A stretch of DNA of 26,590 nt from a virus, in the IMG/VR virus record IMGVR_UViG_3300033571_005467, positions 1 to 26,590 of that record. One strand, written 5' to 3'. Shown here one piece after another: positions 408-26,261 of this stretch. Both the position numbers and the translations under genes were made by a program. The number at the start of each line of letters is the position of its first letter. Position 1 is the first letter of the stretch. A model generated the notes under the pieces. It saw nothing but the letters and a program-made list of their open reading frames with translations, searched no databases and was not told the origin of the DNA.

Positions 408-414
408 ATAAATA
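408..414 (+). promoter_or_regulatory. T4-type late promoter motif (ATAAATA) for the 1127-aa gene
   Basis: ATAAATA matches the T4 late consensus TATAAATA except at the first base. With T4 geometry the transcript would begin near 420, giving a leader of about 21 nt that contains GGAG at 431-434, six bases before the ATG at 441. Position and consensus are seen; activity is inferred. Confidence 0.65.
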
Positions 415-3824: not shown

Positions 3825-3827
3825 ATA
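3821..3827 (+). promoter_or_regulatory. T4-type late promoter motif (ATAAATA) overlapping a stop codon
   Basis: ATAAATA contains the TAA stop (3822-3824) of the upstream 1127-aa gene. Predicted transcription start is near 3833, giving a 17-nt leader with AGAGG at 3836-3840, nine bases before the ATG at 3850. Confidence 0.65.
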
Positions 3828-12015: not shown

Positions 12016-12984
12016 ATGGCAAAGCCAACCTCAACTACTTTAACTAGAAATCTTCGTATTCTCCCTACTGCTGGTGTAGATACGAGAACTGGTCAATTTG
12101 GAGAAATTGGCTACGATAGAACAACCAGTACATTGGTAGTATACGATGGTCAAACTCCTGGAGGATTTCCATTACTTAAAGCTGACCTAAGTAATCTCGA
12201 AGGTTCAGTCATCGATGTTAAAGGTTCAATATTCGGAGACGATTCTACTTTATTGGTAGATGCTGTAAGAAGTAAAATAGTTGGCCCAGTTGAAACTACT
12301 ACAGTTTTAGCTAGCAGCGGCTTTACCGGTAACCTAACAGGTAATGTTCTTGGTAATGTCACGGGTAATGTTCTCGGTAATGTCACAGGTAATGTAAGCG
12401 GCAATGCTGGAACTATAACAAGTCAGGCTAATTCAGCAACTATTACAGCTTCGAGCACAAACACTGCTAACCAGATAGTGTTGCGTGACAGCAGTGGAAA
12501 TTTCAGTGCCGGTACTATTACAGCCAACATATCAGGAAATGTTACCGGTAATGTCACAGGTAATGTAAGCGGCAATGCTGGAACAGTGACAAATGGAATT
12601 TATACTAATCAGACGTATACTGATCCTTCATGGTTAACTATAAATCTCAGCAAGATCACTTTTACAACAGGTCCAAGCATAACATATCAAGGAACTGGAA
12701 CAAATCTAGGAGTTAGATCAACAACAACTAATCTAAATTTTGGATCAGCACCAATATCATCAAAAACATTTACAGTAGCAGATGTCAACGCTACTACCAC
12801 TAGCAAAATTGCAGTATACGCACACCCTACTACAGACAACGGAGCTCTAGGAGGAGATGAATTTGAAATGGATCCTATACATATCAGCGCAGTATGTCTG
12901 ACAAATGGATCTATAACATTTTATGCGAATGCTGGTCAAGGTCCAGTGAAAGGATCGAGAAATTTTCATTACGTAGTAATATAA
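12016..12984 (+). CDS. Tail fibre protein with GNV/GNVTGN repeats
   Basis: Encodes 322 residues. The SD is AAAGGA at 12002-12007, eight bases before the ATG. The N-terminal segment (GQFGEIGYDRTTSTLVVYDGQTPGGFPLLKAD split across residues about 26-57) resembles N-terminal adaptor regions of phage fibres, where GEIGYD and VYDG turns are common. Residues about 105-133 and 177-193 are GNVTGN/GNVSGN-type tandem repeats typical of trimeric fibre shafts, and the two blocks share a perfect 39-bp DNA repeat. The last 120 residues (YQGTGTNLGVRSTTTNLNF onward) look like a beta-rich tip. Role: fibre or appendage; the tip may contact the receptor. It is probably expressed with the preceding giant gene by terminator read-through. 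Confidence 0.8.
   Translation: MAKPTSTTLTRNLRILPTAGVDTRTGQFGEIGYDRTTSTLVVYDGQTPGGFPLLKADLSNLEGSVIDVKGSIFGDDSTLLVDAVRSKIVGPVETTTVLASSGFTGNLTGNVLGNVTGNVLGNVTGNVSGNAGTITSQANSATITASSTNTANQIVLRDSSGNFSAGTITANISGNVTGNVTGNVSGNAGTVTNGIYTNQTYTDPSWLTINLSKITFTTGPSITYQGTGTNLGVRSTTTNLNFGSAPISSKTFTVADVNATTTSKIAVYAHPTTDNGALGGDEFEMDPIHISAVCLTNGSITFYANAGQGPVKGSRNFHYVVI
12375..12584 (+). repeat. Exact 39-bp direct repeat (12375-12413 and 12546-12584) in the fibre gene
   Basis: Both copies read CGGTAATGTCACAGGTAATG and continue identically through AAGCGGCAATGCTGGAAC. The spacing is 171 bp, a multiple of three, so recombination between copies would delete or duplicate 57 codons in frame. Upstream (12340-12375) further imperfect GGTAATGTT units occur. 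Confidence 0.9.
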
Positions 12985-12987
12985 ATA
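12980..12987 (+). promoter_or_regulatory. Perfect T4 late promoter TATAAATA
   Basis: This is the exact T4 late octamer and it overlaps the TAA stop (12982-12984) of the fibre gene. Predicted start near 12993, leader about 15 nt with AGAGGA (12994-12999) before the ATG at 13008. Confidence 0.75.
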
Positions 12988-13725: not shown

Positions 13726-13977
13726 TTACACTAAGTTTGAATGTAGATATTTTCTATAAGAAGCTATATTGGATCTAACAGTGGCAACTTGATCTGGAAT
13801 ATGTCTATTGAAAATAACTTCTTCGTGCAGATTTTCAATCTTATAAACTTCGTTGGTCAGCTTTAACAGAACATCTGTCATATCCTGTTTGAGTTTCCCC
13901 TCGGGAAGATTATTGATTTTTTCTAAGAACATATTTCGTTCTCTTAGAAAATTTTCGTTACTGGGCAGATCTCTCAT
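13726..13977 (-). CDS. Small helical protein, unknown
   Basis: Encodes 83 residues, charged and predicted mostly alpha-helical (LRERNMFLEKINNLPEGKL, then MTDVLLKLTNEVYKIENLHEE), with no Cys and no membrane segment. The ATG (13977-13975) lies inside the end of the upstream Nudix-like gene, overlapping it by 20 bp in another frame, so translation is probably coupled. Last gene of the minus-strand gp14 operon, two bases before the shared terminator. No function can be assigned; small helical proteins in this position may be virion assembly factors, but that is a guess. Confidence 0.7.
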   Translation of the reverse strand: MRDLPSNENFLRERNMFLEKINNLPEGKLKQDMTDVLLKLTNEVYKIENLHEEVIFNRHIPDQVATVRSNIASYRKYLHSNLV

Positions 13978-14347
13978 TTTCTAATAGTAGTATTGTATTG
14001 ATTTTTGTCTGTATGATCTGATTATTTAAAGTATTCTTTAAACCAGTGTGCATACTCTTAGGCAAGTTTTCAAAAGTACACCATGCTAGAGTTTCGACCG
14101 CAGTGGTTAAAAACTCATCGTTAACTAAACAAACATATGTGCCGTATTCAAAACCTCGGTCTTCGGAAAGATACAGCTCAATAGGGATAATTTTTCCCCT
14201 ACTGAAATCATCTAACAAAGGAGCAGCATCGTCCAACAATGACGATTTTCTTGGAAAAGTGGGAACAGTCCATTTTTGATCTTCGAGGACCAAAAGTATA
14301 CGTTCTGTTTTTTTAGATAAGAATAATAATCCTGCTCGCTGTTGCAT
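13958..14347 (-). CDS. Degenerate Nudix-fold-like protein
   Basis: I choose the ATG at 14347 (129 residues, MQQRAGLLFLSKKTERILL) rather than the TTG five codons upstream. The layout follows the Nudix fold: a strand AGLLFLSKKTERILLVLEDQ, then W-T-V-P where the family has W-x-L-P-G-G, a later strand pair YGTYVCLVND, and a closing E-T-L-A-W-C-T-F-E-N-L-P like the family's W-x-x-x-x-E-L-P. The catalytic Nudix box (G-x5-E-x7-R-E-x-x-E-E) is absent; in its place is KSSLLDDAAPLLDDF. It is therefore probably not a pyrophosphohydrolase, or only a structural relative. It begins 12 bases inside the end of gp15. An ATAAGTA element stands five bases before the ATG. Confidence 0.65.
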   Translation of the reverse strand: MQQRAGLLFLSKKTERILLVLEDQKWTVPTFPRKSSLLDDAAPLLDDFSRGKIIPIELYLSEDRGFEYGTYVCLVNDEFLTTAVETLAWCTFENLPKSMHTGLKNTLNNQIIQTKINTILLLENERSAQ

Positions 14348-14352
14348 GAAAA

Positions 14353-14359
14353 TACTTAT
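14353..14359 (-). promoter_or_regulatory. Possible variant late promoter (ATAAGTA) for the Nudix-like gene
   Basis: On the minus strand ATAAGTA is followed by TTTTC and the ATG at 14347, the same five-base spacing seen at four genes with TAAATA. It differs from the T4 consensus at one internal position and lies at the 3' end of gp15, so it may be chance. Confidence 0.3.
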
Positions 14360-15879
14360 CAAGCATTCAGATCAAAGGTCCAATAACCTGGAGCATATTC
14401 TCCTTCAAAGGACTTGAGCCATTGCTCTCCGTCCCATTTATATTGGATGCCTGTTCTTAAGTTAGTAAAGTACTGAGGCGCTTCTGCGGCATATGGATCG
14501 AAAGACGTTATCCAAGTAGAGCCAGTCCATTCAACAATGGTATTGGCTTTGATAACAGGATCGTCACCGTTGAGATTTTTCCAAGCATCGGGTCCATCAT
14601 AGGCATTAGCTGACGAATCGTTGGAAACCCACTTTCTAGAATCTAAAAATTGACCAACATTCTTGCTGTTATTAACGTCGTCTAACATCAAATAGCGTGT
14701 GCCTACAGGAATATTAGCGAAACTACCAAAGTTTCTAATAGGATTAAATTTATAAGGATCTATGATAGCAGTGACCGCAGGAATAGTATTTGATGGAATA
14801 GTGTCCGGATCGATATTGACTGTTATATATGTAGGATCTATTTCATTGATTTCAAAGCTTCCTATAACCTCATACCCGTTAGGCTGTTTAAACCTAACTA
14901 AACTAGTAGAAGAATAGTTTCCTATCTTTTCAAAAACGATATTCCAATCTATTCTCGGACCAGTTTTCAATGGAGGATCTAATTTCAGTGCTTTAACAAC
15001 TTCGGTGGTATCTACTATTGATAGGTCGTAACCTTGTCCCGAAGGATTCTTTAATAATAGAACACCATAACCTGTGCTCCAAATACCAAGATTTACTTTA
15101 CCGCCAATTTTATTTGGCACGGGCGAATTAAATTGACTTCCTACATTGCCCATGTCATTGTAAATTAGATCATCTAAGGATTTTACTGTTCCCTGATCTG
15201 TAAAGATATTCATAACCAATGATTTTACAATACCAAGTCGTTTAACCTTAGCAGGAGGAGTGATCCATATAGGAGTTTCAAATTCTATAGAACAGATATC
15301 TATATCAGATTCGGGACCTGCAGGAATAGTTCTTGAACTGAACTGTATATTTTTAATATCTAGAACGCTAAGACTGGTCCAATCAATATAGTTGTCTGTG
15401 GTCTGTATTTCTAAACTAGGATTAAACAGAACTAATATCTGTTCTAATAATTGTAATTTTTGATCAGTATTTGAAGTCCATATATCTGCTTTCATGCTGA
15501 GCTTATAAGGCGTAGGCATTAATCTTTCAACAGTATATGTTCCGCCTTGATTTTGTTGATACACAGGATTTCCCTGAGCATCAAATTCGGAATAGTCTCT
15601 TTCGAACACATTGACCTTGCTGATAAATTGAGCATCGCTGAGTCTACTGGTATCCATCTCTAAGCCTGTGATATAGCAGGCAATGCGAGGTACAGTAGGC
15701 ATTTTGTTTTCGCTGTTCTCTTTGATTAACGCAGCAACCTGTCTGGTTAGATCTCCGTACATCACGGGTACATGTCGCTCTTCGGGAGTCTCACCGCCTG
15801 TTTTATATTTGAAGCCTATGAATACACGCATGAATTGTGTAACATATCTTCTTACCTGCCCGTCATAAAAATGATCCAT
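14359..15879 (-). CDS. 15: Tail sheath stabiliser/terminator gp15-like, with C-terminal extension
   Basis: Encodes 506 residues against 272 in T4 gp15. The first about 215 residues follow T4 gp15: an N-terminal HFYDGQVRRYVTQFM (T4 has YFYNSSFRRYATLM), central TPYKLSMKADIWTSNTDQKL and LEQILVLFNPSLE (T4: SPIKMIYELSIFTRYEDDM, EQILPYFQPHF), and FETPIWITPPAKV. gp15 caps the sheath end and joins the tail to the neck. The remaining about 290 residues are an extension not present in T4, ending in two Trp hairpin motifs (VEWTGSTW at 449-456, YKWDGEQW at 480-487). The start overlaps the gp14 stop in TAATG, which implies translational coupling. No Shine-Dalgarno is obvious. Confidence 0.85.
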   Translation of the reverse strand: MDHFYDGQVRRYVTQFMRVFIGFKYKTGGETPEERHVPVMYGDLTRQVAALIKENSENKMPTVPRIACYITGLEMDTSRLSDAQFISKVNVFERDYSEFDAQGNPVYQQNQGGTYTVERLMPTPYKLSMKADIWTSNTDQKLQLLEQILVLFNPSLEIQTTDNYIDWTSLSVLDIKNIQFSSRTIPAGPESDIDICSIEFETPIWITPPAKVKRLGIVKSLVMNIFTDQGTVKSLDDLIYNDMGNVGSQFNSPVPNKIGGKVNLGIWSTGYGVLLLKNPSGQGYDLSIVDTTEVVKALKLDPPLKTGPRIDWNIVFEKIGNYSSTSLVRFKQPNGYEVIGSFEINEIDPTYITVNIDPDTIPSNTIPAVTAIIDPYKFNPIRNFGSFANIPVGTRYLMLDDVNNSKNVGQFLDSRKWVSNDSSANAYDGPDAWKNLNGDDPVIKANTIVEWTGSTWITSFDPYAAEAPQYFTNLRTGIQYKWDGEQWLKSFEGEYAPGYWTFDLNA

Positions 15880-17270
15880 TATTCATCCGCCTTTGGTCTA
15901 AGTGCTTTAGATAGACTTTGTTTTTCAGCGACCTGTTTGTCGTTAATTTTGTTAACTTTATCATTGTTGATAAAGCTGGTTTTAAGAGTATCTCTGGCAT
16001 CTTTGCCTTCGAATGTTTCGCCTGGCGCAACGTCTGAAGGACCTAAATTACTCATAGTCATTCTTACATTATCTTCAATCTTAATCCATCTAGTTCCACT
16101 AAATCTAAACAATCTCTTAGGCATGTAATCTGTTCTTAAACAATATTGACCCATAATTGGATTCAATGGGAAAGCAATACCAGCAGTAAAGGCAGTACCA
16201 TTAGGCGGTTCGCCATCGCCAAGTAAGTATCCTTCATATCCGGTGGTCCTTGGAGTTTCCATAACCGAGGCAGCAGTTGGATTGATGTATATAGGATTGC
16301 CGTTGCCGTCTGTTAATAAATTGCCTTCCGGATCTGTGGCCTGCAATTGAGATGATGCATCAATAGTTGAATTGTCAACAGTAAGTAGTTCGCTGTTGCC
16401 ATTTTCATAATTTTTCTGTACAGTATAATATTGAGTAGTATCGTAACCACTCTTAGGAGCATCTGATTCAGCTTGATCAAGAACTGCCTGCGTGATCTGC
16501 ATTTCTCTTTCGTAAGTTGACATAATATCACGTAGACTGTCGGCTAGTTTATAGTAGCTAGGGTTTGGAGGTGCTATTCCGGTAACTTCTCTAAGCACTT
16601 CATATTTCTTACCATCTGATCCGGTTACAATATCACCTGGATAATATGTAACGTCAGTACTCCAAGTTCCGACAAATCCTTCTGTGTTTGCTATGCCGTC
16701 TAGGATATCTTTAAATTCTTGACTATCTACTAGGGGTTTACATTTTGCACGATATAAATGTGGATACCAAGTTACAGAAAATCCCTCTGCTGCTCTAGTC
16801 ACTTCTTCGATAACATAAAAACGTTTGAGTGCAAATGTTAGATCGTTTAGAGCGAACTCATCTTTGAGATGAGGTAATTCTAAAACATCGCCTGCGATTA
16901 TTTTTCTGCCTAATTTATCAACAGTATCATTGATATGAAACGTAATAAAAATCGTATCGTTTTGTAAAAACAATCCAAATTGACTTAGATTAAAATCTGT
17001 GTCTTGGATGTTGTAAACACCGCGCATGATAAAAATGTCTGGATCGTATTTTCTATCTCTATTTTCTAAGAATAGCAGATCTTGGATATTAGTTACGCTG
17101 TCGGTAGCATAGGTGGGTGTAGTTGGCGTATTTTCTGCAGATGCGCCAGGTCCTAGGTATTTGTGAACTAGGACGTCAGTACCGCCCACCTGAAACATTT
17201 CCCAGATAGTTTTATCGATAAATTTATAGTCGTTGCCCTTTTCTGGGCGATAAAGCGAAAGTCTTGGCAT
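15879..17270 (-). CDS. 14: Neck protein gp14-like, with inserted CBM-like module
   Basis: I choose the ATG at 17270 (463 residues, MPRLSLYRPEKGNDYKF), because the longer frame to 17321 would overlap the divergent gp13 start and its promoter. Residues about 79-173 (IFIMRGVYNIQDTDFNLSQF, then ITFHI, then AGDVLELPHL) match the gp14 neck/head-completion family, which joins head and tail in T4. Residues about 198-245 are a CBM5/12-like module (GTWSTDVTYYPGDIV, ending IAPPNPSYYKLAD) like those in the 1127-aa protein. Residues about 387-398 carry LFRFSGTRWIKI. The protein is nearly twice T4 length (256). A late motif GGTAAATA stands seven bases upstream of the ATG. Confidence 0.85.
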   Translation of the reverse strand: MPRLSLYRPEKGNDYKFIDKTIWEMFQVGGTDVLVHKYLGPGASAENTPTTPTYATDSVTNIQDLLFLENRDRKYDPDIFIMRGVYNIQDTDFNLSQFGLFLQNDTIFITFHINDTVDKLGRKIIAGDVLELPHLKDEFALNDLTFALKRFYVIEEVTRAAEGFSVTWYPHLYRAKCKPLVDSQEFKDILDGIANTEGFVGTWSTDVTYYPGDIVTGSDGKKYEVLREVTGIAPPNPSYYKLADSLRDIMSTYEREMQITQAVLDQAESDAPKSGYDTTQYYTVQKNYENGNSELLTVDNSTIDASSQLQATDPEGNLLTDGNGNPIYINPTAASVMETPRTTGYEGYLLGDGEPPNGTAFTAGIAFPLNPIMGQYCLRTDYMPKRLFRFSGTRWIKIEDNVRMTMSNLGPSDVAPGETFEGKDARDTLKTSFINNDKVNKINDKQVAEKQSLSKALRPKADE

Positions 17271-17277
17271 AGTCATA

Positions 17278-17283
17278 TATTTA
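17278..17283 (-). promoter_or_regulatory. Late promoter motif TAAATA driving the gp14 operon
   Basis: On the minus strand GGTAAATA ends at 17278, with a predicted start near 17272, two bases before the ATG at 17270. It is divergent from and only eight bases away from the gp13 late motif. Confidence 0.55.
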
Positions 17284-17291
17284 CCGCTACG

Positions 17292-17298
17292 ATAAATA
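17292..17298 (+). promoter_or_regulatory. Late promoter motif ATAAATA driving gp13; predicted leaderless
   Basis: ATAAATA is followed by CTTGT and the gp13 ATG at 17304. With T4 geometry (start about six bases after the motif) the first transcribed base is the A of the ATG. No SD precedes the gene. Confidence 0.6.
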
Positions 17299-17303
17299 CT
17301 TGT

Positions 17304-18062
17304 ATGAGCCAAATTGACCAATCAAAACAAGCTGTATACGACTACTGTAAAGCCATGCTAGGCGATGGCATGATCGATATAGAACTAGATCCTATACACT
17401 ACGAAACAGCACTAAATCGCTCTCTAGCGGTTTTCCGTCAACGCAGCGATAATGCTGTAGAAGAAAGCTATGCTTTTTTAACTTTGAATAAAGATCAAAA
17501 CGAGTATATTCTGCCAAAAGAAATACAGCAGGTTCGTCAGATCTTTAGACGCAGCATCGGATCAAGATCCGGTGGTGGCGGTGGCGGTACAGTGTTTGAG
17601 CCGTTCAATTTAGCCTATACAAATACCTATTTGCTAAGTTCAACAAATATGGGCGGACTGTTAACCTATGAATTGTTTAGCAGTTATCAAGAACTTGTGG
17701 GTAAGATGTTTGGTTCGTTTATTAACTTCACCTGGCATCCACAGACTAGAAAATTAGTTATAATGCAAAGACCTCGAGGCGAAGAAGAAGTCATGCTTTG
17801 GGTTTACAATACTAAACCTGATTTTTCTATCATAGAAGATACCTACGCCGGCCAATGGATCAAAGACTATTCATTAGCTAACTGTAAAATGATGTTAGGA
17901 CAGGCCCGCGAAAAATTTGCTCAAATAGCAGGACCCACAGGCGGATCGAGCCTCAACGGAGCAGCACTGAAAACCGAAGCCCAACAAGAAATTGAAAAGC
18001 TCACTGACGATTTGATGAAGTTAGTTCCGGGCGGCAGCGGTTATACTTGGATTATCGGTTGA
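17304..18062 (+). CDS. 13: Neck protein gp13-like
   Basis: Encodes 252 residues (T4 gp13 has 309). The N-terminal helices (YDYCKAMLGDGMIDIELDP), FINFTWHPQTRKLVIMQRPRG, the repeat of acidic helices and the C-terminal GGSGYTWIIG are features I associate with gp13 of T4-like marine phages. With gp14 it forms the neck through which DNA-filled heads attach to tails. A Gly-rich loop (residues 90-96) is present. It is divergent from gp14 instead of lying upstream of it on the same strand as in T4. No Shine-Dalgarno precedes the ATG. The stop TGA (18060-18062) overlaps the -35 box of the next gene. Confidence 0.8.
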   Translation: MSQIDQSKQAVYDYCKAMLGDGMIDIELDPIHYETALNRSLAVFRQRSDNAVEESYAFLTLNKDQNEYILPKEIQQVRQIFRRSIGSRSGGGGGGTVFEPFNLAYTNTYLLSSTNMGGLLTYELFSSYQELVGKMFGSFINFTWHPQTRKLVIMQRPRGEEEVMLWVYNTKPDFSIIEDTYAGQWIKDYSLANCKMMLGQAREKFAQIAGPTGGSSLNGAALKTEAQQEIEKLTDDLMKLVPGGSGYTWIIG

Positions 18063-18088
18063 CACTATAAAAATGCGTATGCTATAAT
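18059..18088 (+). promoter_or_regulatory. Near-consensus sigma70 promoter with extended -10
   Basis: TTGACA (18059-18064), an 18-bp spacer, then TATAAT (18083-18088) preceded by TGC, giving the extended TGn element. Both hexamers are perfect. The predicted start is near 18095, leaving a leader of about 14 nt before the kinase ATG at 18109. It overlaps the end of gp13. This is the only host-type promoter of this quality noticed in a late region otherwise controlled by TAAATA motifs. Confidence 0.85.
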
Positions 18089-18098
18089 ATTCTTAATT

Positions 18099-18103
18099 GG
18101 AGG
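18099..18103 (+). promoter_or_regulatory. Shine-Dalgarno GGAGG deciding the kinase start
   Basis: GGAGG lies five bases before the ATG at 18109. It overlaps the alternative TTG at 18097, which would place the SD inside the coding region, so 18109 is the start. Confidence 0.85.
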
Positions 18104-18108
18104 ATATT

Positions 18109-18795
18109 ATGATCATAGGTATTTGCGGGTTTATTGGCAGCGGTAAAGATACAGTCGCTGACTATCTAGTTAATTTTCACGAATTTAGAAGAGAGAGTTT
18201 TGCGTCAACTCTTAAAGATGCAGTAGCGGCAGTGTTTGGCTGGGACCGGATGCTGTTAGAAGGACGCACCAAAGAAGCCAGAGAGTGGCGAGAGCAAGTA
18301 GATCCTTGGTGGGCACAACGTCTAGACATGCCCACACTTACTCCTAGATGGGTCCTACAATATTGGGGTACAGAAGTCTGCCGTAAATCCTTCCATGACG
18401 ATATCTGGATCGCTAGCTTAGAAAACAAACTCCGCAACTCCAAAGACCATGTAGTAATCTCCGATTGTCGTTTCCCTAATGAAATAGCCAGCATTAAAAA
18501 TGCAGGAGGCAAGATTATTTGGGTACAGCGAGGAGAACTACCCGACTGGTACGAAATAGCTGTAGAATCTAACAAAGGTCATAATTGGGCATTTCAAGAA
18601 CTTAAAATGCGTAAAATCCATGCATCAGAAACTGCCTGGGTCGGAACCGACTTTGATTCGATAGTTGATAACAATGGAACTATTGAAGATCTTTACAATC
18701 AGGCAAAATTAATAATCAGCAACGAGGTCGCCCTGTCTCCAAGTAATGCCCAGTTTAGACAGCACTCGAGCACAATTGTAACAGATTGTTTTTAA
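18109..18795 (+). CDS. 1: Deoxynucleoside monophosphate kinase, T4 gp1-like
   Basis: Encodes 228 residues (T4 gp1 has 241). The P-loop GFIGSGKDT (residues 7-15) binds ATP. VLQYWGTEVCR (82-92), VISDCRFPNEI (116-126) and HASE (171-174) are characteristic of the dNMP kinase family. The enzyme phosphorylates dNMPs to dNDPs for phage DNA synthesis and is cytoplasmic. It has its own strong sigma70-type promoter and SD, so it is probably transcribed early by unmodified host polymerase although it lies among late genes. The last 29 codons overlap, on the opposite strand, the end of the HNH-like gene, which suggests an insertion or a compacted junction. Confidence 0.9.
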   Translation: MIIGICGFIGSGKDTVADYLVNFHEFRRESFASTLKDAVAAVFGWDRMLLEGRTKEAREWREQVDPWWAQRLDMPTLTPRWVLQYWGTEVCRKSFHDDIWIASLENKLRNSKDHVVISDCRFPNEIASIKNAGGKIIWVQRGELPDWYEIAVESNKGHNWAFQELKMRKIHASETAWVGTDFDSIVDNNGTIEDLYNQAKLIISNEVALSPSNAQFRQHSSTIVTDCF

Positions 18796-19044
18796 ATTGC
18801 TGTGACGGCAGTTATCTAAATTGCCGTCAATATGAAATACACTAAAAACTTCAGAGTGCGGTGATTTGAAACCGCACTTTTCGCACTGATTTTTTACTCG
18901 ATATCCTGCACGTTTCCATCTTGGAATACCATGATGCAGTCCGTTAGTCATACAGATTTCACACAGGCTTCTATAATAAGTCTTTCCATTCTTTTTATAG
19001 TTAACGGCTCTAGGTCTTTCCCCGCATTTACATAGTGGTCTCAT
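18709..19044 (-). CDS. HNH-like zinc-finger protein, probably catalytically altered
   Basis: Encodes 111 residues. It has a zinc-ribbon-like N-terminus (C5, C7, C28, C31) and a ββα-Me-like C-terminus: C54-x2-C57, then HIDGNLDN (71-78), N83-L and C88-x2-C91. In active HNH nucleases the core is usually HHIDGN with a later C-H-x3-H; here the first His is Phe70 and the position after C91 is Ala, so nuclease activity is doubtful. It is convergent with the kinase and overlaps it by 87 bp; the far end is divergent from the sheath gene. A TAAATA motif lies exactly five bases before the ATG with no SD. Alternative: a structural or DNA-binding zinc protein. Confidence 0.75.
   Translation of the reverse strand: MRPLCKCGERPRAVNYKKNGKTYYRSLCEICMTNGLHHGIPRWKRAGYRVKNQCEKCGFKSPHSEVFSVFHIDGNLDNCRHSNLKTICYNCARVLSKLGITWRQGDLVADY
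18803..18829. repeat. Inverted repeat TGACGGCA/TGCCGTCA
   Basis: Perfect 8-bp arms with an 11-base loop start eight bases after the kinase stop. It lies within the codons for DGNLDNCRH of the HNH-like gene on the minus strand, and no T-run follows. It may protect the kinase mRNA 3' end or be a by-product of the motif codons. Confidence 0.4.
18855..18881 (+). terminator. Possible terminator for the kinase transcript, inside the HNH-like gene
   Basis: AGTGCGGT / ACCGCACT form a perfect 8-bp stem with an 8-base loop, followed by only four T. It lies 60 bases after the kinase stop and inside the minus-strand HNH-like coding region (residues around the C54-C57 zinc knuckle). The U-tract is short, so efficiency is uncertain. 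Confidence 0.4.
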
Positions 19045-19049
19045 AACAG

Positions 19050-19055
19050 TATTTA
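19050..19055 (-). promoter_or_regulatory. Late promoter motif TAAATA for the HNH-like gene; predicted leaderless
   Basis: On the minus strand TTTAAATA is followed by CTGTT and the ATG at 19044. Same geometry as gp13, the tube-initiator-like gene and the internal-head-like gene. Confidence 0.5.
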
Positions 19056-19119
19056 AAAGATCTGGACCTTTTTGTCCCCTTTTTCTGCTAGTATAACAGG
19101 CCGTTTTTCCGATTTACCG

Positions 19120-19126
19120 CTAAATA
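19120..19126 (+). promoter_or_regulatory. Late promoter motif CTAAATA for the sheath-tube operon
   Basis: CTAAATA predicts a start near 19132 and a leader of about 30 nt with AGGAG at 19149-19153, eight bases before the ATG at 19162. It is divergent from the HNH-like gene's late motif 64 bases away. Confidence 0.6.
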
Positions 19127-19161
19127 TTGTTACGAGAGATTTAACCTCAGGAGAATACAAC

Positions 19162-22100
19162 ATGGCACTAGTTTCCCCAGGCATTCAGGTTACCGTAATT
19201 GATGAGAGTTTTTATACACCAGCTGAACCTGGTACAACTCCGTTAATTGTTGTAGCTACAGCCGAGAACAAACTTAATGGAGCGGGAACCGCAACTGCGG
19301 CAGGTACTCTAAAAGCAAACGCAGGTAAAGCGTTTAGAATGACAAGTCAGAAAGATCTTGTTGATACATTTGGTGTACCTTTCTTTGAAAAGACACCTAG
19401 CGCATCACCAATTCACGGTGGCGAAAGAAACGAATATGGTACCTTAGCAGCATACAGCTACTTAGGTGTTTCTAACTCTGCATTTATTGTACGTGCAGAC
19501 GTTGATCTAAATCAATTAGAAGGCAGAACCGCTGTACCAGGCGCAGAGCCAAGAGACGGAACTTGGTGGGTTGATACCCGTAACACAGCTTGGGGTATCC
19601 AAGAGTGGAACGGTGCAGCAGGTAGCACCACAGGCGGTCAAAAGTTCGCAGCTAAAACTCCTATCGTTTTAACTGATGACGATGCAGCTAAAATTGATCA
19701 AAATACATATGCACCTTTAGAATCAGTTGGTTCTGTTGGTGATTATTGCGTAGTAGCACTAACTGTTGGTAACGCAGCAGATGCTGATTTTAGCTTGTTC
19801 AAAGAAAACTTTAAGATCTACTACAAGAGAGATAAAAAATTATTAGGCGGTGACGCTTGGGTTCTAGTTGGCAGCAACGACTGGAAAGCTAGTCATCCAA
19901 CAGTGTCAAGCGGAACTGTTTCTAACCTAACAGCTGGACACAGTTTCACAATTAACGGAACAACTGTAGCAGTACCAAGCGGCTCAACTGTAGCTGCTAG
20001 ACTAACAGCATTAGTTTCAACAATTAATGGTTTGTCTATCACAGGTATTACTGCAAGAGAAAACGGCGGAAGATTGTTCATATTCACCGACGGTGCTAAC
20101 GATGGCGGATTCCCAGGTAGTCCACAAGGTGCCCCTGGCGATTCATCTTTATCCAATGCTATCGTTATTGGTGCAGGAACAGGCACAGCAGTTGGAACTT
20201 CAACAGCAAACGCAGGTGATCTTGGCATTATCGTTGGAACCTACTATGGTCCAGAATTAGCACAGGCACCGCACACACAAGTTCCATTGTTTAAGACTTT
20301 CGATCCAACTCCACGTCCTACAGGTTCTGTATGGATTAAGACAACTGAGCCAAACAACGGCGCTCGTTGGAGAGTTAAGCGTTGGAACTCAGCAACACAA
20401 ACATGGATTCCTTATTCATCACCATTATATGAAAGCGGACACGCAGCACTGTATTTCTTAGATCGCAGTGGCGGTGGTGTTAATATTCCAACAGACGAAC
20501 TGTTTGCTCAATTCAATGCTGACGAAGAGTCTGGCTACGATACAAGCCCAGCTACAGCAGCATTTAGAGTGTGGAGACGTGCAAATACTGAAAGAACTAT
20601 TATTAGATCTTCAGAAATCACAGTCGGAACATTTTCGTCTGGTTCGAAAACATTTACAATTTCTGAATCTGTAAAAGGCGAACTAGCATTGAGTTCACCA
20701 TTTAGCGTTACATTTACCGCAGCAGGTACAGCAGCAGATGCACAAACTATCGCAGCAGCGATCAACGCAGCAGGTTTCACACACGTTGAAGCTGATGTTG
20801 AAGTAATTTCTGCAACACCAGCAGTTTATCAACTAGTTGTTTACCACAAGGTCGGCGGTGATTTTAGATTAAAAGACACATCCGGAACAACATTATCATC
20901 ATTGTTCACAGGATTTAACATTGATTCTGGAGCAGGCACATTAAATTGCTACACAGCTCCAGCAGCTAGCGGTGTTGATTTTATTGCTTCTAACTGGCAA
21001 CCATTTGCATCAAGAGACTTCTTTGCACAAGCAGGCGCACCATTAGACGAACCATTTGATGGTCAACTATGGTACAACCCAAGCTTCAGCGAAGTTGATA
21101 TCATGATCCACAACGGTACAACCTGGGTTGGCTACAGACAAGCAACAAGCCCATACTGGGCAGGGGCAGATGCAGATCGTACAGATCCAAATGGTCCTAT
21201 CGTAAGTGCTACACAACCAGAAACACAAAGCGATGGTACTGTTCTAAAGAATGGTGATCTATGGATCAGCACAGCTGACATTGAAAACTTCCCAACTATC
21301 TACAGATACAATGGTTTATCTCTAGAGTGGGATTTAATTGACAAGACAGACCAAACTACTGAAGACGGTGTTCTATTTGCTGATGCACGTTTTGGTTCTT
21401 CAGGAGCAACAGGCCACGTAGCAGCTACCATCAAAGATCTACTAGCTTCTAACTATCTAGATCCAGACACTCCAGATCCTGCACTATATCCAAAAGGTAT
21501 GATGCTGTGGAATCTACGTAGAAGTGGCGGCAACGTTAAGAAATACAATAACAACTATATCAATACAGCAGAAGACAATCCACGTTTAGGTAATGTAAGT
21601 ATGGCAGCATACTCAACTGATCGTTGGACCACAGCTTCTCCAAACAACGAAGACGGTTCTGGCGCATTTGGTCGCAAGGCACAGCGTAAAGTTGTTGTAA
21701 TGGCAATGAAGAGTGTTATTGATACCAGTGAAGAAATTCGTGATGAAGAGCGTAGAAACTTCAATATCATCGCTGCACCAGGATATCCTGAAGTGTTAAG
21801 CAACTTGATCAACTTAAACATTGATCGTGGCGTAACAGCGTTTGTTGTTGGCGACACACCATTGAGATTGAAGAACAACGCTACAGAACTAATCAACTGG
21901 GGTACTAACGCAAGACTAGTAACAGACAACGGCGACGACGGTATTGTTAGCTTTGACGAGTATTCAGCAGTTTACTATCCAAACGGATTTACAACTGACC
22001 TAGGCGGTGCTAACGCAGTTGTTCCAGCAAGTCACATGATGCTAAGAACAATCGCCCTAAGCGATCAAGTTAGCTATCCATGGTTTGCACCAGCAGGTAC

Positions 22101-22605
22101 AAGACGTGGTGGTATTACTAATGCAACAGCAGTTGGCTTTATCGATGCAGCAACTGGTGAATTCCAGACAGTGGCATTGAACGAAGGTACACGTGATGTT
22201 CTTTATGATCTAAAAGTTAATCCGATCCCATTCTTTGTTGGAGTTGGTCTAGTTGCATACGGTCAAAAGACTCGTGCAAGAAACGCAAGTGCGTTGGATA
22301 GAATTAACGTAGCTCGTTTGATTGTTTACTTACGTAGCCAATTGAATAAGTTAGCTCGTCCATATGTGTTTGAACCAAACGACAAGATCACCAGAGACGA
22401 AATCAAAGGCGCTGTAGAGAGCTTATTACTAGAACTAGTAGGCCTAAGAGCACTTTATGACTTTGCTGTGGTTTGCGACGAATCTAACAACACACCAAGT
22501 AGAATTGACCGCAACGAATTGTGGGTAGATATTGCTATCGAACCTGTTAAGGCCGTTGAGTTTATCTACATTCCACTACGTGTCAAGAACACAGGAGAAA
22601 TCTAA
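19162..22605 (+). CDS. 18: Tail sheath protein gp18-like, enlarged
   Basis: Encodes 1147 residues (T4 gp18 has 659). The start at 19162 (MALVSPGIQVTVIDESF) has AGGAG eight bases upstream; the longer TTG start would include the late promoter in the coding region. The N-terminus SPGIQVTVID and the C-terminal third (SYPWFAPAGTRRGGI, then FVGVGLVAYGQKT, then RINVARLIVYLRSQL, ending KAVEFIYIPLRVKN) are diagnostic of contractile sheath proteins. The middle holds two flagellin-IN-like insertions (about 250-318 and 483-576) and four Trp hairpin motifs (about 130-153, 385-419, 631-658, 695-726). These probably decorate the outer sheath surface. The sheath contracts to drive the tube through the envelope. 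Forms an operon with gp19, two bases apart. Confidence 0.95.
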   Translation: MALVSPGIQVTVIDESFYTPAEPGTTPLIVVATAENKLNGAGTATAAGTLKANAGKAFRMTSQKDLVDTFGVPFFEKTPSASPIHGGERNEYGTLAAYSYLGVSNSAFIVRADVDLNQLEGRTAVPGAEPRDGTWWVDTRNTAWGIQEWNGAAGSTTGGQKFAAKTPIVLTDDDAAKIDQNTYAPLESVGSVGDYCVVALTVGNAADADFSLFKENFKIYYKRDKKLLGGDAWVLVGSNDWKASHPTVSSGTVSNLTAGHSFTINGTTVAVPSGSTVAARLTALVSTINGLSITGITARENGGRLFIFTDGANDGGFPGSPQGAPGDSSLSNAIVIGAGTGTAVGTSTANAGDLGIIVGTYYGPELAQAPHTQVPLFKTFDPTPRPTGSVWIKTTEPNNGARWRVKRWNSATQTWIPYSSPLYESGHAALYFLDRSGGGVNIPTDELFAQFNADEESGYDTSPATAAFRVWRRANTERTIIRSSEITVGTFSSGSKTFTISESVKGELALSSPFSVTFTAAGTAADAQTIAAAINAAGFTHVEADVEVISATPAVYQLVVYHKVGGDFRLKDTSGTTLSSLFTGFNIDSGAGTLNCYTAPAASGVDFIASNWQPFASRDFFAQAGAPLDEPFDGQLWYNPSFSEVDIMIHNGTTWVGYRQATSPYWAGADADRTDPNGPIVSATQPETQSDGTVLKNGDLWISTADIENFPTIYRYNGLSLEWDLIDKTDQTTEDGVLFADARFGSSGATGHVAATIKDLLASNYLDPDTPDPALYPKGMMLWNLRRSGGNVKKYNNNYINTAEDNPRLGNVSMAAYSTDRWTTASPNNEDGSGAFGRKAQRKVVVMAMKSVIDTSEEIRDEERRNFNIIAAPGYPEVLSNLINLNIDRGVTAFVVGDTPLRLKNNATELINWGTNARLVTDNGDDGIVSFDEYSAVYYPNGFTTDLGGANAVVPASHMMLRTIALSDQVSYPWFAPAGTRRGGITNATAVGFIDAATGEFQTVALNEGTRDVLYDLKVNPIPFFVGVGLVAYGQKTRARNASALDRINVARLIVYLRSQLNKLARPYVFEPNDKITRDEIKGAVESLLLELVGLRALYDFAVVCDESNNTPSRIDRNELWVDIAIEPVKAVEFIYIPLRVKNTGEI

Positions 22606-22607
22606 AA

Positions 22608-23237
22608 ATGGCAATTACATCATTAAATAACTACTCCGTACAGACAGCAGGCCCTGGTAGTAACCAGAGCTTGTTGATGCCAAAGCTAAAGTATCGCTTT
22701 AGAGTGATTCTTTTAGGTTTCGGTGTTGAGCCAAGTACAGAGTTAACAAAACAGGTCATGGATGTTACAAGACCTAAAGTTTCTTTCGAAGAAATGGACA
22801 TCCCTGTGTACAACTCACGTGTTTACCTAGCTGGCAAATATAGCTGGGAAACAATGACATTGACACTACGTGATGACGCAAGCGGCCAAGTTACTAAGTT
22901 AGTTGGTCAACAGATCCAGAAACAATTCGACTTCATGGAACAGGCATCTGCACGTTCAGGCGTTGACTACAAGTTTACGACTAAGATCGAAGTGTTAGAC
23001 GGCGGTAACGGTGGCACAGGCGCTGCAAGTGTGTTAGAAACATTTGAGTGCTACGGTTGCTTCGTACAGAACGCAGACTACGGTGATTTGAACTACGGTA
23101 CTAACGAACCAGCAACAGTAGCATTAACAATTAGATTTGATAATGCTATCCAATCAGCAGGTACTGTTGGTATTGGAACCATTGTTGGAAGAACCATTGG
23201 TTCAGCTATCACTGGTCAGGGCGCATTCAACGGCTAA
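22608..23237 (+). CDS. 19: Tail tube protein gp19-like
   Basis: Encodes 209 residues, close to T4 gp19 (163) with a longer C-terminus. YRFRVILLGFG near the start, VSFEEMDIPVYNSRVYLAGKY and the strand pattern WETMTLTLRDD fit the tail-tube fold, as does ATVALTIRFDNA near the end. Hexamers stack inside the sheath to form the DNA conduit. An AGGAG at 22593-22597, inside the end of the sheath gene, lies ten bases before the ATG. The stop is followed by a strong terminator, so sheath and tube form a two-gene transcript suited to their high and matched copy number. Confidence 0.93.
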   Translation: MAITSLNNYSVQTAGPGSNQSLLMPKLKYRFRVILLGFGVEPSTELTKQVMDVTRPKVSFEEMDIPVYNSRVYLAGKYSWETMTLTLRDDASGQVTKLVGQQIQKQFDFMEQASARSGVDYKFTTKIEVLDGGNGGTGAASVLETFECYGCFVQNADYGDLNYGTNEPATVALTIRFDNAIQSAGTVGIGTIVGRTIGSAITGQGAFNG

Positions 23238-23256
23238 ACCATCCAGTAAATCAAAG

Positions 23257-23280
23257 AAACCCGCAGAAGCGGGTTTTTTT
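23257..23280 (+). terminator. Rho-independent terminator after gp19
   Basis: Stem ACCCGC / GCGGGT with an AGAA tetraloop, followed by seven T (23274-23280). It lies 20 bases after the tube stop and six bases before the next late promoter motif. Confidence 0.9.
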
Positions 23281-23285
23281 GTGGC

Positions 23286-23292
23286 ATAAATA
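23286..23292 (+). promoter_or_regulatory. Late promoter motif ATAAATA; predicted leaderless
   Basis: ATAAATA is followed by TTATT and the ATG at 23298, so the predicted start coincides with the A of the ATG. A terminator ends six bases upstream, so read-through cannot easily supply a leader. No SD is visible. Confidence 0.65.
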
Positions 23293-23297
23293 TTATT

Positions 23298-24398
23298 ATG
23301 AATAAATTCGTGAGATATCTAACCCAAGGATTCGTCGGCGGCCTTCTAAATCCTAAAGGCAACATGGCTAACTGGCAACATGCCACGAGGCTATTTGTTG
23401 ACGACAATTATAGATTAGCTCCTAGAACAAAGTTTATGTTCTATGCTCAATTTGAGCTAGATAGAACTGCGGTTAAATCAAACGTCTTTACAGAAAAACA
23501 TTCAAATGAAATTGGTTTTTTGATCAAAGGAACTGATCTTCCTAAGTTTACTATTGACACAGTAACTAAAAATCAATACAACAGAAAAAAATTAGTTTAT
23601 AAAAATATAACCTACGATCCGATCTCAATGACATTCCACGATGACAATGCTGGAATCATTAACGCTTTGTGGGCGATATACTACGGATATTATTTCCAAG
23701 ATCGTGCATTACCGGATGCTGCTTTTTCAGATACAAAATACAGACCGCAATACGGACCATTAGATACATTTCGTTACGGTCTTGATAATGATAAGAGCGT
23801 TGATATTTTTAAAAGTATCAGTATCTATACACTAAGTAGAAAGCGTTTTAACGGATATACCCTGATTAATCCTAGAATACAAAACTGGGCACACGGATCC
23901 GTGGCCTATGGCGATAACGATGTTTTAGAAAGCACGATGACTGTTCAATACGAATCTGTAAGATACTCATCAGGAAACGTTAGTGTAAACAATCCTAAAG
24001 GTTTTGCTACTCTACACTATGATGTATCGCCTAGTCCTCTCAGTGTTGCTGGTGGCGGCGTTGCTAGACTTACTGGCACAGGCGGTGTCTTAGATGGTAT
24101 CAGTCAGGTGTTTGGTGCAGTAGGTAGCGGTTCAGCTTTTGGTTCTGTAGGCGGATTTTTAGGCACAGCTATTGCTGCTGCTAACACTTATAATAATGCA
24201 GGACGTCTTTCTAAAGAAGGTCTTAAAGCTGAAGCGATTAACATTTTATCTAGCCCGTCGAATATCAGAGGGGCAGTTAATACAGTCAGTGGGGTTATAG
24301 GTTCAGCGTTTCCTTCAAACACCCAAGGTAGTGGCGGAACTACCGCTACTCAGAAAAATCTAACCAATAACAATCCTAGCGCAGGAACAACAATATGA
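23298..24398 (+). CDS. Baseplate tail-tube initiator-like protein (gp54/gp48 type)
   Basis: Encodes 366 residues. Residues about 40-235 look like a tube-fold domain: TKFMFYAQFELDRT, IKGTDLPKFTIDTVTKNQYN, and YDPISMTFHDDNAG, ending in STMTVQYESVRYSS. This is followed by a Gly/Ala-rich helical tail (VFGAVGSGSAFGSVGGFLGT), the same order as T4 gp54 (320 aa), the platform on which gp19 polymerises. T4 gp48 has a related tube fold, so I cannot decide between them by eye. It directly follows gp19. Its stop overlaps the next start in ATGA, implying coupled translation. The ATG has no SD and sits five bases after a late motif. Confidence 0.6.
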   Translation: MNKFVRYLTQGFVGGLLNPKGNMANWQHATRLFVDDNYRLAPRTKFMFYAQFELDRTAVKSNVFTEKHSNEIGFLIKGTDLPKFTIDTVTKNQYNRKKLVYKNITYDPISMTFHDDNAGIINALWAIYYGYYFQDRALPDAAFSDTKYRPQYGPLDTFRYGLDNDKSVDIFKSISIYTLSRKRFNGYTLINPRIQNWAHGSVAYGDNDVLESTMTVQYESVRYSSGNVSVNNPKGFATLHYDVSPSPLSVAGGGVARLTGTGGVLDGISQVFGAVGSGSAFGSVGGFLGTAIAAANTYNNAGRLSKEGLKAEAINILSSPSNIRGAVNTVSGVIGSAFPSNTQGSGGTTATQKNLTNNNPSAGTTI

Positions 24399-24766
24399 GT
24401 ATTACTAATTTACCGGTTCAAGGAACCGAAGACAGCGCAGACGGAACAAAACTATTCTTCAGTCAATACGGAAGACAACCTTTAGAATTTTCCGCCAACG
24501 AAGTTTCAGCCGCAGTAGGATTTTTTGAGTCAAACGGATTTGCAAAAGAAGCAGCCCAGGTCACAGCTTCTGTGATATTGACACAGGCCAAACTCGACGG
24601 AGTTCCGGTATTCAAACTGATCGATTCATTAAAAGTTCTTAACGGTCTACAGTTAAGTTCTTTGATAGGTGAAATATTAAACAACAATAGAAATCCTTCC
24701 TCTACTCTAGGATTTAAAACTAATAGTGTGTCAAAAAGCGATCAAGTAAGAAATATCGCTGCCTAA
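24395..24766 (+). CDS. Conserved small structural protein, unknown
   Basis: Encodes 123 residues. LEFSANEVSAAVGFFESNGF, AAQVTASVILTQAKLDGVPV and EILNNNRNPSSTLGFKT resemble a conserved hypothetical family of T4-like cyanophages found near tail and head genes; that recollection is not verified. Predicted mainly helical, with no membrane segment or catalytic motif. Translationally coupled to the preceding tube-initiator-like gene by ATGA and followed five bases later by gp4. Probably a virion assembly component or chaperone. Confidence 0.7.
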   Translation: MSITNLPVQGTEDSADGTKLFFSQYGRQPLEFSANEVSAAVGFFESNGFAKEAAQVTASVILTQAKLDGVPVFKLIDSLKVLNGLQLSSLIGEILNNNRNPSSTLGFKTNSVSKSDQVRNIAA

Positions 24767-24770
24767 CATC

Positions 24771-25211
24771 ATGGTCAAGTTTGCCCAAGGACGTTTTGAA
24801 ATGAAAAACCCCAACAAGTATGTTGGGAAGAAAATGCCTTTAGCCCGCAGCAGTTGGGAATTTGTCTTTATGCGAATGCTAGACGAACATCAAGGTGTTG
24901 AAAAATGGGCTAGCGAAAGCATACAGATACCTTATAGAGATCCGTTAACTGGCAAGTACACAGTCTATGTTCCGGATTTTTTTATCGTCTACAATGATAA
25001 AACTGGTAAGAAACATGCAGAAGTTGTAGAAGTAAAACCACAAAGTCAAACTCTAAGAGAGCACGTAGGTAAAAGCGCCTATAATCAAGAACAATATATT
25101 AAAAATCTAGCAAAGTGGGAAGCTGCTACTGCATGGTGTAAGCAACAGGGCATCAAATTTAGAGTGGTAAACGAAGGCGATATTTTCCATCAAGGCGGCA
25201 AACGTCGATAA
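24771..25211 (+). CDS. 4: Head completion protein gp4-like (TnsA/PD-(D/E)XK fold)
   Basis: Encodes 146 residues (T4 gp4 has 150). The order F-x-Q-G-R-x-x-M-K-N-P-N-K-Y-V-G-K, RSSWEFVFMRMLDEH, KWASESIQIPY, VPDFFI, VEVKP and KWEAATAWCKQQGIKFRV matches T4 gp4 segment by segment. E30, D69, E87 and K89 form the expected PD-(D/E)XK catalytic pattern of a TnsA-like nuclease fold. In T4 gp4 completes filled heads before tail joining. The start at 24771 keeps the N-terminal block shared with T4; it has no SD and follows the previous stop by four bases, so coupling is likely. Confidence 0.9.
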   Translation: MVKFAQGRFEMKNPNKYVGKKMPLARSSWEFVFMRMLDEHQGVEKWASESIQIPYRDPLTGKYTVYVPDFFIVYNDKTGKKHAEVVEVKPQSQTLREHVGKSAYNQEQYIKNLAKWEAATAWCKQQGIKFRVVNEGDIFHQGGKRR

Positions 25212-25218
25212 GTACAAT

Positions 25219-25701
25219 ATGACCAAAAAATTAGAAGAACTTTTTAATCTTGAGGAATCTAATCCAAAGCCAGTGGAAACTGTCGAAGAGGAAAAGCCAT
25301 CTCACCAAGAAGTAAAATCACTAGATGACAGCTATAAAGCAGTCGCTGAAATTACCAGAGGTCTTCCGCAGATCAAAGAGCTAGATGATCTAGACGAAAA
25401 AGAGCTAGATTCTCTAGCCAGTAAAGCAGAAGCTGCCTATGACGATCTAATGGATCTAGGCATGAACGTAGAAGTACGTTATTCGGGACGTATTTTTGAA
25501 GTGGCTGCAAGCATGATGGGCAATGCTATCAATGCTAAAAACGCTAAAATCGAGAAGAAACTTAAAGCTATCGATCTACAATTGAAAAAATATAAAATCG
25601 ATAAAGATAACAATGAAGATCCAAATGATGTGATTAACGGCCAGGGTTACATTATCACTGACCGTAACGAGCTCCTTAAGAAATTGGGTCAAAAGAGCTA
25701 A
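25219..25701 (+). CDS. 16: Small terminase subunit gp16-like
   Basis: Encodes 160 residues (T4 gp16 has 164). The N-terminus is acidic (EELFNLEESNPKPVETVEEE) and followed by LDDSYKAV like T4 LEDDYGVV. The central coiled coil FEVAASMMGNAINAKNAKIEKKL (in two parts) corresponds to T4 VFATLMGQMTTTNREIL, and the end ITDRNELLKKLGQ to T4 PTELMDEIG. It would oligomerise into a ring that regulates the large terminase in headful packaging. It lies seven bases after gp4. The large terminase gene, adjacent in T4, is not here. An ATAAGTA element stands four bases before the ATG. Confidence 0.8.
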   Translation: MTKKLEELFNLEESNPKPVETVEEEKPSHQEVKSLDDSYKAVAEITRGLPQIKELDDLDEKELDSLASKAEAAYDDLMDLGMNVEVRYSGRIFEVAASMMGNAINAKNAKIEKKLKAIDLQLKKYKIDKDNNEDPNDVINGQGYIITDRNELLKKLGQKS

Positions 25702-25704
25702 ATA
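25698..25704 (+). promoter_or_regulatory. Late promoter motif CTAAATA overlapping the gp16 stop; predicted leaderless
   Basis: CTAAATA contains the gp16 TAA (25699-25701) and is followed by CTACT and the ATG at 25710. Predicted start equals the A of the ATG. Confidence 0.6.
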
Positions 25705-25709
25705 CTACT

Positions 25710-26261
25710 ATGAAAACTTTTAAAGAATATCTTACCGAAAGCAAAAAGACCTACCCGTTCCGTATCAAGGTAGCAGGCGAACTGCCTGAAGGTTTTGCTA
25801 AAAAAGTCAAAGAATATCTAGGATATTGCAGAGCTAATTTGATTGAAAAATCAAAAACTCCGATACAGGCACAACCTCTGGATTTTCCAGAATTAAGTAA
25901 TATGGAAGTGCATGTGTTTGAAGTAGTATGCGAGTATCCAACTACTGCTCCTCAGATACTTGAAAGAATTAAATGCCTAGTTCCTGAAAGTCATTTACGA
26001 GTAAGAAACGGCGGTGATCCAGGCGAAGCAGAACACGCAGGATTTAATCTAGAAGGTTCGGGTGAATCTATTCTAGAAGAGCCAGAGTATAATGATAAAG
26101 TCAAAGCCAAAGATTATTTCGGCGATGATTTTAATAAAGGTTTCTTAAAAGACCTTTCCAAGTCGTCTAAAGAACGCAAAAAGGAAGGCGTTAATACAGA
26201 ATACAAATTACCAAAATCAAAAGAAGATAAAACTGGCGTTAAGAGCGCCATAGGGAGTTAA
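25710..26261 (+). CDS. Internal head/prohead-core-like protein with capsid-targeting N-terminus
   Basis: Encodes 183 residues. The first eleven residues MKTFKEYLTES closely match the T4 capsid-targeting sequence of internal proteins (MKTYQEFIAEA), including an L-T-E at 8-10 that fits the T4 gp21 prohead-protease consensus (L/I)-x-E. This is followed by an alternating β/α domain (PFRIKVAGEL, QPLDFPELSNMEVHVFEVVCEYP) resembling a conserved protein of marine T4-like phages, then a highly charged, probably disordered C-terminus. It is likely packaged in the prohead and trimmed during maturation. No clear SD is present; a late motif ends five bases before the ATG. Confidence 0.7.
   Translation: MKTFKEYLTESKKTYPFRIKVAGELPEGFAKKVKEYLGYCRANLIEKSKTPIQAQPLDFPELSNMEVHVFEVVCEYPTTAPQILERIKCLVPESHLRVRNGGDPGEAEHAGFNLEGSGESILEEPEYNDKVKAKDYFGDDFNKGFLKDLSKSSKERKKEGVNTEYKLPKSKEDKTGVKSAIGS

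Follow-up and report, generated by a model that had tools for sequence, protein, structure and literature searches.

Where do the late messenger RNAs of a T4-like phage begin, and can some of them begin at the start codon itself? The question is raised by a virus record of 26,590 bases (IMG/VR IMGVR_UViG_3300033571_005467), which was analysed whole and is called here the window. It holds 15 copies of the hexamer TAAATA, and four of them sit exactly five bases before an ATG (TAAATA-N5-ATG). The initial annotation of the window took these for late promoters that produce mRNAs without a leader. On the evidence given below, gp55-type late promoters very probably make leaderless or near-leaderless mRNAs for an inherited set of genes, including those for gp13 and the large terminase.

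T4 late promoters carry TATAAATA, spanning positions -13 to -6 (PMC1524935), while the sequence at -35 is described as unconserved (PMC2988020). In the mechanism proposed here, RNA polymerase with a phage gp55-like sigma would recognise TAAATA (TAAGTA before two genes) as a T4-type late promoter core. When the core lies 4-8 bases before the ATG, and mostly exactly 5, RNA would begin at the A of the ATG or at most about 3 bases earlier. The mRNAs of this close class would have no usable leader or Shine-Dalgarno (SD) sequence, and ribosomes would initiate on their terminal or near-terminal AUG. Promoters lying 14-40 bases upstream would instead yield ordinary, mostly SD-led mRNAs.

PHROGs matches (fibre, sheath, sheath-stabiliser, gp13-like adaptor, tube and head-closure genes) identify the window as a fragment of a T4-like myovirus. 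The named phages nearest to it by gp13 are Atu_ph07 (44.4%), PA5oct (44.1%) and Phosso (40.7%), and gp13 has at least 598 relatives, a large uncultured lineage. At the four N5 starts (Table 1), the positions and spacers are as first annotated, the ATGs open reading frames of 252, 366, 183 and 111 aa, and there are zero SD matches of at least 4 nt, in agreement with the annotated lack of a clear SD. The near-start site of gp14 is also present, with a spacing of 7 on the minus strand. The other ten TAAATA consist of four that lie 20-35 bases before an ATG preceded by an SD-like sequence and six within other open reading frames (ORFs); the annotation had noted that the hexamer also occurs inside some genes. 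Its statement that the fixed spacing is unlikely by chance holds only modestly within the window: dinucleotide shuffles give a mean of 0.64 N5 matches, and one shuffle in 100 reaches four. This suggests that the four sites alone are modestly unlikely by chance, and that the strength of the case comes from the relatives. One of these, an 80,762-base contig (G010, locus L287), encodes a protein 100% identical to the product of the 25710 gene and has the same four N5 spacers; it is probably a close variant of the window's virus.

Spacing was counted at genome scale in four relatives, G001 (353 kb), G002 (280 kb), and the fragments G003 (90 kb) and G004 (78 kb), taking ATGs that open at least 80 codons 4-40 bases after TAAATA. 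The distribution is bimodal, with 90 ATGs at spacings 4-8 (20, 50, 6, 9 and 5 at 4, 5, 6, 7 and 8, respectively), five at 9-13 and 115 at 14-40, so that the close class makes up 90 of the 210. G001 alone has 41 at 4-8, two at 9-13 and 38 at 16-32. The near-empty zone is what promoter geometry predicts, since a leader of that length would be too long for leaderless initiation and too short for an SD. When all hexamer-spacing pairs with at least eight occurrences were scanned over spacings 0-15, TAAATA at 5 ranked first, above the hexamers of the SD; it has 50 cases, and the mean at other spacings is 4.33 (Poisson 3e-35, relatedness ignored). The close class also has the SD rarity and the ATG start codon of leaderless-type genes. 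With ORFs of at least 50 codons and the window included, an SD match of at least 4 nt precedes 6/105 starts at spacings 4-8 against 64/104 at 16-32. In the four contigs, the start codons at 4-8 are 90 ATG, 2 GTG and 2 TTG. Raw N5 matches outnumber those of the reversed pattern in G001 (20/5), G002 (20/2), G003 (13/1) and G004 (8/2), and by 80 to 17 in seven further lineage contigs of 81-187 kb; two distant contigs have one match against five reversed. An artefact of letter composition was looked for with 14 other orders of the motif's letters, none of which gives a comparable peak except those that overlap a shifted TAAATA (ATAAAT, AAATAT). Over their first 45 nt, close-class genes fold just slightly more weakly (-3.39 vs -4.31, P 0.05), and this was set aside as evidence.

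Named phages do not share this pattern, and the claim that the arrangement is unlike T4 is sustained. ATGs at spacings 4-8 and 16-32 number, respectively, 3 and 35 in T4, 1 and 21 in S-PM2, 6 and 42 in 121Q, 1 and 48 in Phosso (400 kb), 0 and 29 in Atu_ph07 (200 kb), and 4 and 36 in PA5oct (200 kb). Thus T4 and the five others, searched whole or in part, keep leaders, and their 4-8 class is absent or at background. Raw and reversed N5 matches are 15/9 in Atu_ph07, 3/2 in Phosso, 15/12 in PA5oct, 6/11 in 121Q, 10/5 in T4, 2/2 in KVP40 and 5/3 in S-PM2. In Phosso, Atu_ph07 and PA5oct, gp13 has the same promoter core but is leadered. Queries with gp13 from Phosso, Atu_ph07 and 121Q found 8, 3 and 1 loci, and the nine examined out of these 12 either carry a leader or lack a TAAATA close to gp13 (left out were L232, which matched only in part, L233, on the same record as L227, and L236, the 121Q record itself). 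On present sampling, the close class is confined to one jumbo T4-like lineage.

Within that lineage the spacing is kept while the flanking bases drift; this was the comparison named in the initial annotation as its own test, and its reading is supported. For gp13 it is 5 in 80/80 loci. After the addition of a second query and of nine rows from distant outgroups, it is 5 in 121/131 rows, the other ten being these nine (at spacing 16-27, or lacking TAAATA over 46 bases) and one contig, L275. The gp13 and 25710 rows include duplicate contigs, and unique contexts were therefore counted separately: 56/57 in-lineage gp13 contexts keep spacing 5. The way these 56 were chosen fixes the motif columns; of the spacer, columns -5 to -2 vary and carry only 0.47-0.73 bits, whereas at -1 there is T in 46 contexts and C in 10. 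For the 25710 gene, 106 of 113 rows are at spacing 5, six at 7 and one at 8, with 32/34 unique contexts at 5. Orthologs of the HNH-like gene have 5 in 47/66 and 4 in 19/66, those of the 23298 gene 5 in 29, 4 in three and 6 in one of 33, and those of gp14 7 in 67, 8 in seven, 5 in four and no motif in one of 79. The leadered arrangement is maintained as well, with the sheath orthologs keeping a spacing of 30-34 in 51/58. Among 42 gene pairs classed in both G001 and G002, 17 stay close, 23 stay leadered, and one switches in each direction (Fisher 1.2e-9). Set aside from this comparison were, for G001 close-class genes, three without the motif, one without an ATG and one at spacing 1 (nested ATGATG), and, for leadered genes, eight without the motif and four without an ATG; one gene lies at 9-13 in both contigs. 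By this sequence comparison, the membership of a gene in the close or the leadered class is inherited.

That the motif is a promoter is indicated from several sides. The T4-type core of TATAAATA, TAAATA, is present; T at -13 is not conserved here, and neither is it in other T4-like phages (PMC1524935). No -35 signal is seen, the best TTGACA match averaging 3.0/6 in 102 close-class sites vs 3.03 in 416 other TAAATA. Homologs of the gp55-type late sigma are encoded by the two largest relatives, G001 and G002 (E 6e-80 and 1e-81), as in T4, and were found in 8/10 records, namely these two and all six of the named phages that were searched; G003 and G004, both fragments, gave no match. The class thus resembles the T4 late promoters, which are served by the gp55 sigma with gp33 and gp45, in its TAAATA core, in its lack of a -35 element, and in the virion and packaging genes that lie downstream. 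An intrinsic terminator also stands just upstream of the 23298 gene, and its T-tract stops at 23280, six bases short of TAAATA. This gene therefore needs a promoter of its own, and no leader longer than about 17 bases would fit. The cores of gp13 and gp14 lie back to back (window 17278-17298), divergent and 9 bp apart, so that neither gene can be read through from the other, and in five loci (L001, L018-L020 and L031) they are fused as one two-way palindrome, TATTTATAAATA.

The position of the RNA start is taken from T4. Under T4 geometry, +1 is the sixth base after TAAATA, which at spacing 5 is the A of the ATG. In leadered SD promoters this sixth base is A in 86% of cases in PA5oct (n=22), 74% in Atu_ph07 (n=23), 67% in S-PM2 (n=15) and 60% in T4 (n=30). 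The base at -1 is a pyrimidine at 47/50 spacing-5 starts vs 31/63 leadered starts. Together, T4 geometry and the pyrimidine at -1 would place the 5' end at or near the AUG. Three things are inferred from such patterns: the activity of the motif, the site of the RNA start, and initiation by ribosomes on a terminal or near-terminal AUG.

Table 1. Motif sites and genes in the window and in the close class of G001.
Feature	Position	Strand	Details
gp13 TAAATA core	17293..17298	+	spacer CTTGT, ATG 17304
gp13-like gene	17304..18062	+	252 aa; phrog_211 head-tail adaptor, E 2.5e-33
TAAATA core of tail-tube-related gene	23287..23292	+	spacer TTATT, ATG 23298
Tail-tube-related gene	23298..24398	+	366 aa; phrog_4542, E 4.7e-10
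Intrinsic terminator	23252..23281	+	hairpin and T-tract, -19.7 kcal/mol, z -4.67; upstream of 23287 core
TAAATA core of 25710 gene	25699..25704	+	spacer CTACT; TAA of core is stop of ORF 25219-25701
Virion structural protein gene	25710..26261	+	183 aa; phrog_14802, E 5.1e-8
HNH-like gene TAAATA core	19050..19055	-	spacer CTGTT, ATG 19044
HNH-like gene	18709..19044	-	111 aa; phrog_2255, E 2.6e-4
gp14-like gene TAAATA core	17278..17283	-	divergent from gp13; spacer of 7 (TATGACT), ATG 17270
gp14-like gene (label of the initial annotation)	15879..17270	-	phrog_11591 virion structural protein, E 1.5e-84, scanned as 15879-17321
TAAGTA variant core	14353..14358	-	spacer TTTTC, ATG 14347; gene 13958-14347, first annotated as Nudix-like
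TAAGTA variant core	25209..25214	+	spacer CAAT, ATG 25219; TAA of core is stop of ORF 24771-25211
Leadered comparator, TAAATA	19121..19126	+	35 bases before sheath ATG 19162; AGGAG
Leadered comparator, TAAATA	409..414	+	26 bases before ATG 441; GGAG
Leadered comparator, TAAATA	3822..3827	+	22 bases before ATG 3850; AGAGGAA
Leadered comparator, TAAATA	12982..12987	+	20 bases before ATG 13008; AGAGGAA
TAAATA within other ORFs	2449, 7733, 22624	+	window
TAAATA within other ORFs	14028, 6787, 5873	-	window
Large terminase	G001 close class		phrog_36964, E 4e-116
Virion protein	G001 close class		phrog_13484
HNH protein	G001 close class		
CHASE2 and adenylate/guanylate cyclase protein	L089:5803-7842	+	G001; TAAATA 4-5 bases before ATG
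DAHP synthase	L091:18364-19194	+	G001; TAAATA 4-5 bases before ATG

Several observations weigh against leaderless initiation or narrow its reach. The ORFs were mechanically called, and the contigs, being related, do not count as independent; G005 and G006, among the seven further ones, look nearly alike. Base 6 is A in 62% of cases in 121Q (n=47) and 56% in Phosso (n=50), unpeaked over its neighbours, and the lineage's own leadered promoters have no A preference there (33% of 64) and no start-site signature; the start position accordingly rests on T4 and some of the relatives. L275, a 53,393-base contig with a gp13 77% identical, has a GGAG stretch and no TAAATA before gp13, perhaps through reversal to leadered initiation. 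A conserved AAGG stretch lies further upstream of the HNH orthologs. Five of the 22 G001 close-class genes with a G002 ortholog ATG fall outside the close class there (one through the nested ATGATG). Finally, an upstream ORF ends on the TAA of the core at 22/102 close-class sites (window 25699-25704 and 21 in G001-G004) vs 32/415 other TAAATA, and at these 22 translation could be coupled on a longer mRNA.

These stop codons, which the TAAGTA sites likewise abut or contain, are what could be expected if TAAATA-N5-ATG were an A+T-rich, non-SD translation or coupling signal on longer mRNAs and not a transcription start. The same motif, however, is also found 14-40 bases upstream of SD-led genes, the 23298 gene stands behind its terminator, and gp13 and gp14 cannot be reached by read-through from one another. 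In addition, 23/102 close-class sites have the reverse core TATTTA in the 40 bases upstream of them, vs 11/416 other TAAATA. A translation signal is thus very unlikely. It is also conceivable that the promoters are real but that RNA starts several bases upstream or heterogeneously, giving short SD-less leaders of about 4-10 nt. Spacings of 6-8 in 20/90 of the close class and the prevalence of 7 before gp14 would fit such leaders, but only five ATGs lie at 9-13, which implies that the ATG stays close to where RNA is expected to start; the pyrimidine at -1 and T4 geometry point the same way, which leaves short leaders a most improbable explanation. Chance or composition can draw on the one shuffle in 100 that reaches four sites and on the raw excess in T4; yet permuted motifs and other phages have no peak, and the orthologs, in keeping the spacing, refute chance, whose probability is practically negligible. 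Leaderless or near-leaderless late mRNAs remain the preferred reading.

A variant of the motif is found before two genes of the window. The ATAAGTA-TTTTC-ATG noted for the minus-strand gene starting at 14347 is present as first described; the Nudix label of this gene (13958-14347) was not confirmed, Pfam giving no match at E <= 0.001. A similar site, ATAAGTA-CAAT-ATG at 25219, was absent from the initial list. Among orthologs of the 14347 gene, TAAGTA is at spacing 5 in 55 and 4 in 21 (76/79 in total), and among those of the 25219 gene at 4 in 87 and 5 in 26 (113/119, with two more skipped); neither set has TAAATA at spacing 4-5. In G001-G004, TAAGTA is mildly enriched at spacings 4 (seven cases) and 5 (five); two genes counted over four contigs suggest that most of these cases belong to the two families. 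Since the G is maintained, promoters with TAAGTA may differ in strength by design. The stop codons at these sites may also have a role in coupled translation.

Leaderless phage mRNAs are not new in themselves. The lambda leaderless mRNA is, to our knowledge, a single case, and the middle and late mRNAs of the Thermus phage phiYS40 are leaderless, in a host that has many such mRNAs. The likeness to both lies in phage mRNAs beginning at AUG, as predicted here; phiYS40 is an unrelated phage. Kasugamycin leaves leaderless transcripts uninhibited (PMC5230787). IF3 disfavours leaderless mRNAs, and it is encoded (PF00707) by Atu_ph07, Phosso and 121Q, all without a close class, while none was found in 11 lineage records, many of them fragments, or in PA5oct, T4 and two distant contigs. 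The correlation is weak because PA5oct, T4 and the two distant contigs lack both. Bacterial leaderless genes have TA-like boxes about 10 bp before the start, and the same source names lambda as having leaderless phage mRNA (PMC3160421); in S. meliloti, 171 leaderless start sites were mapped, all AUG (PMC3616915). The close class is like these TA-led genes in the distance of about 10 bp from core to start codon, the lack of an SD and the use of ATG. It is unlike them in being of phage late-sigma type with a fixed 5-base spacer, and its 5' ends are predictions from sequence. A paper on phage AR9 calls phage transcripts "often leaderless", yet gives AR9 leaders of 26-491 nt (PMC5312081). Among the matches listed in the open PMC literature, with subscription papers outside the scope, none was found to describe leaderless late genes as a class in T4-like phages; "leaderless" occurs only within a reference in PMC9004378 and PMC11845039 and is absent from PMC10770324.

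Gene finding and promoter rules for T4-like phages assume SD-led late genes, whereas here virion and packaging genes, as a conserved set, appear to be leaderless throughout a large lineage of uncultured phages. The prediction is a sharp one, a 5' end at the start codon, and the class offers a natural system for studying how leaderless mRNAs compete late in infection. Because gp13 orthologs in sister phages have the same core with a leader, the switch of initiation mode can be studied gene by gene. We suggest only tentatively, and consider it rather doubtful, that the late programme runs through two heritable translation classes, leaderless and SD-led, with packaging, neck and other proteins answering differently to the late state of the ribosome. 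If so, the leaderless class would be suited to initiation on a terminal AUG. In G001 the close class has 43 members, including orthologs of window genes. Nineteen were scanned; many have no match or match only families of unknown function, and those identified are in Table 1.

Naming a host through the phage-encoded ribosomal protein bS21 was tried and given up, as only eight relatives are in the genome collection, seven of them (47-51% identity) in Alphaproteobacteria or Rickettsiales metagenome-assembled genomes, and this evidence is too weak. The bS21 search found nothing in 121Q, in T4, or in G003 and G004, which are fragments. The protein is encoded in G001 (C1:33352-33510) and G002 (C1:15466-15624), and also in Atu_ph07, Phosso and PA5oct.

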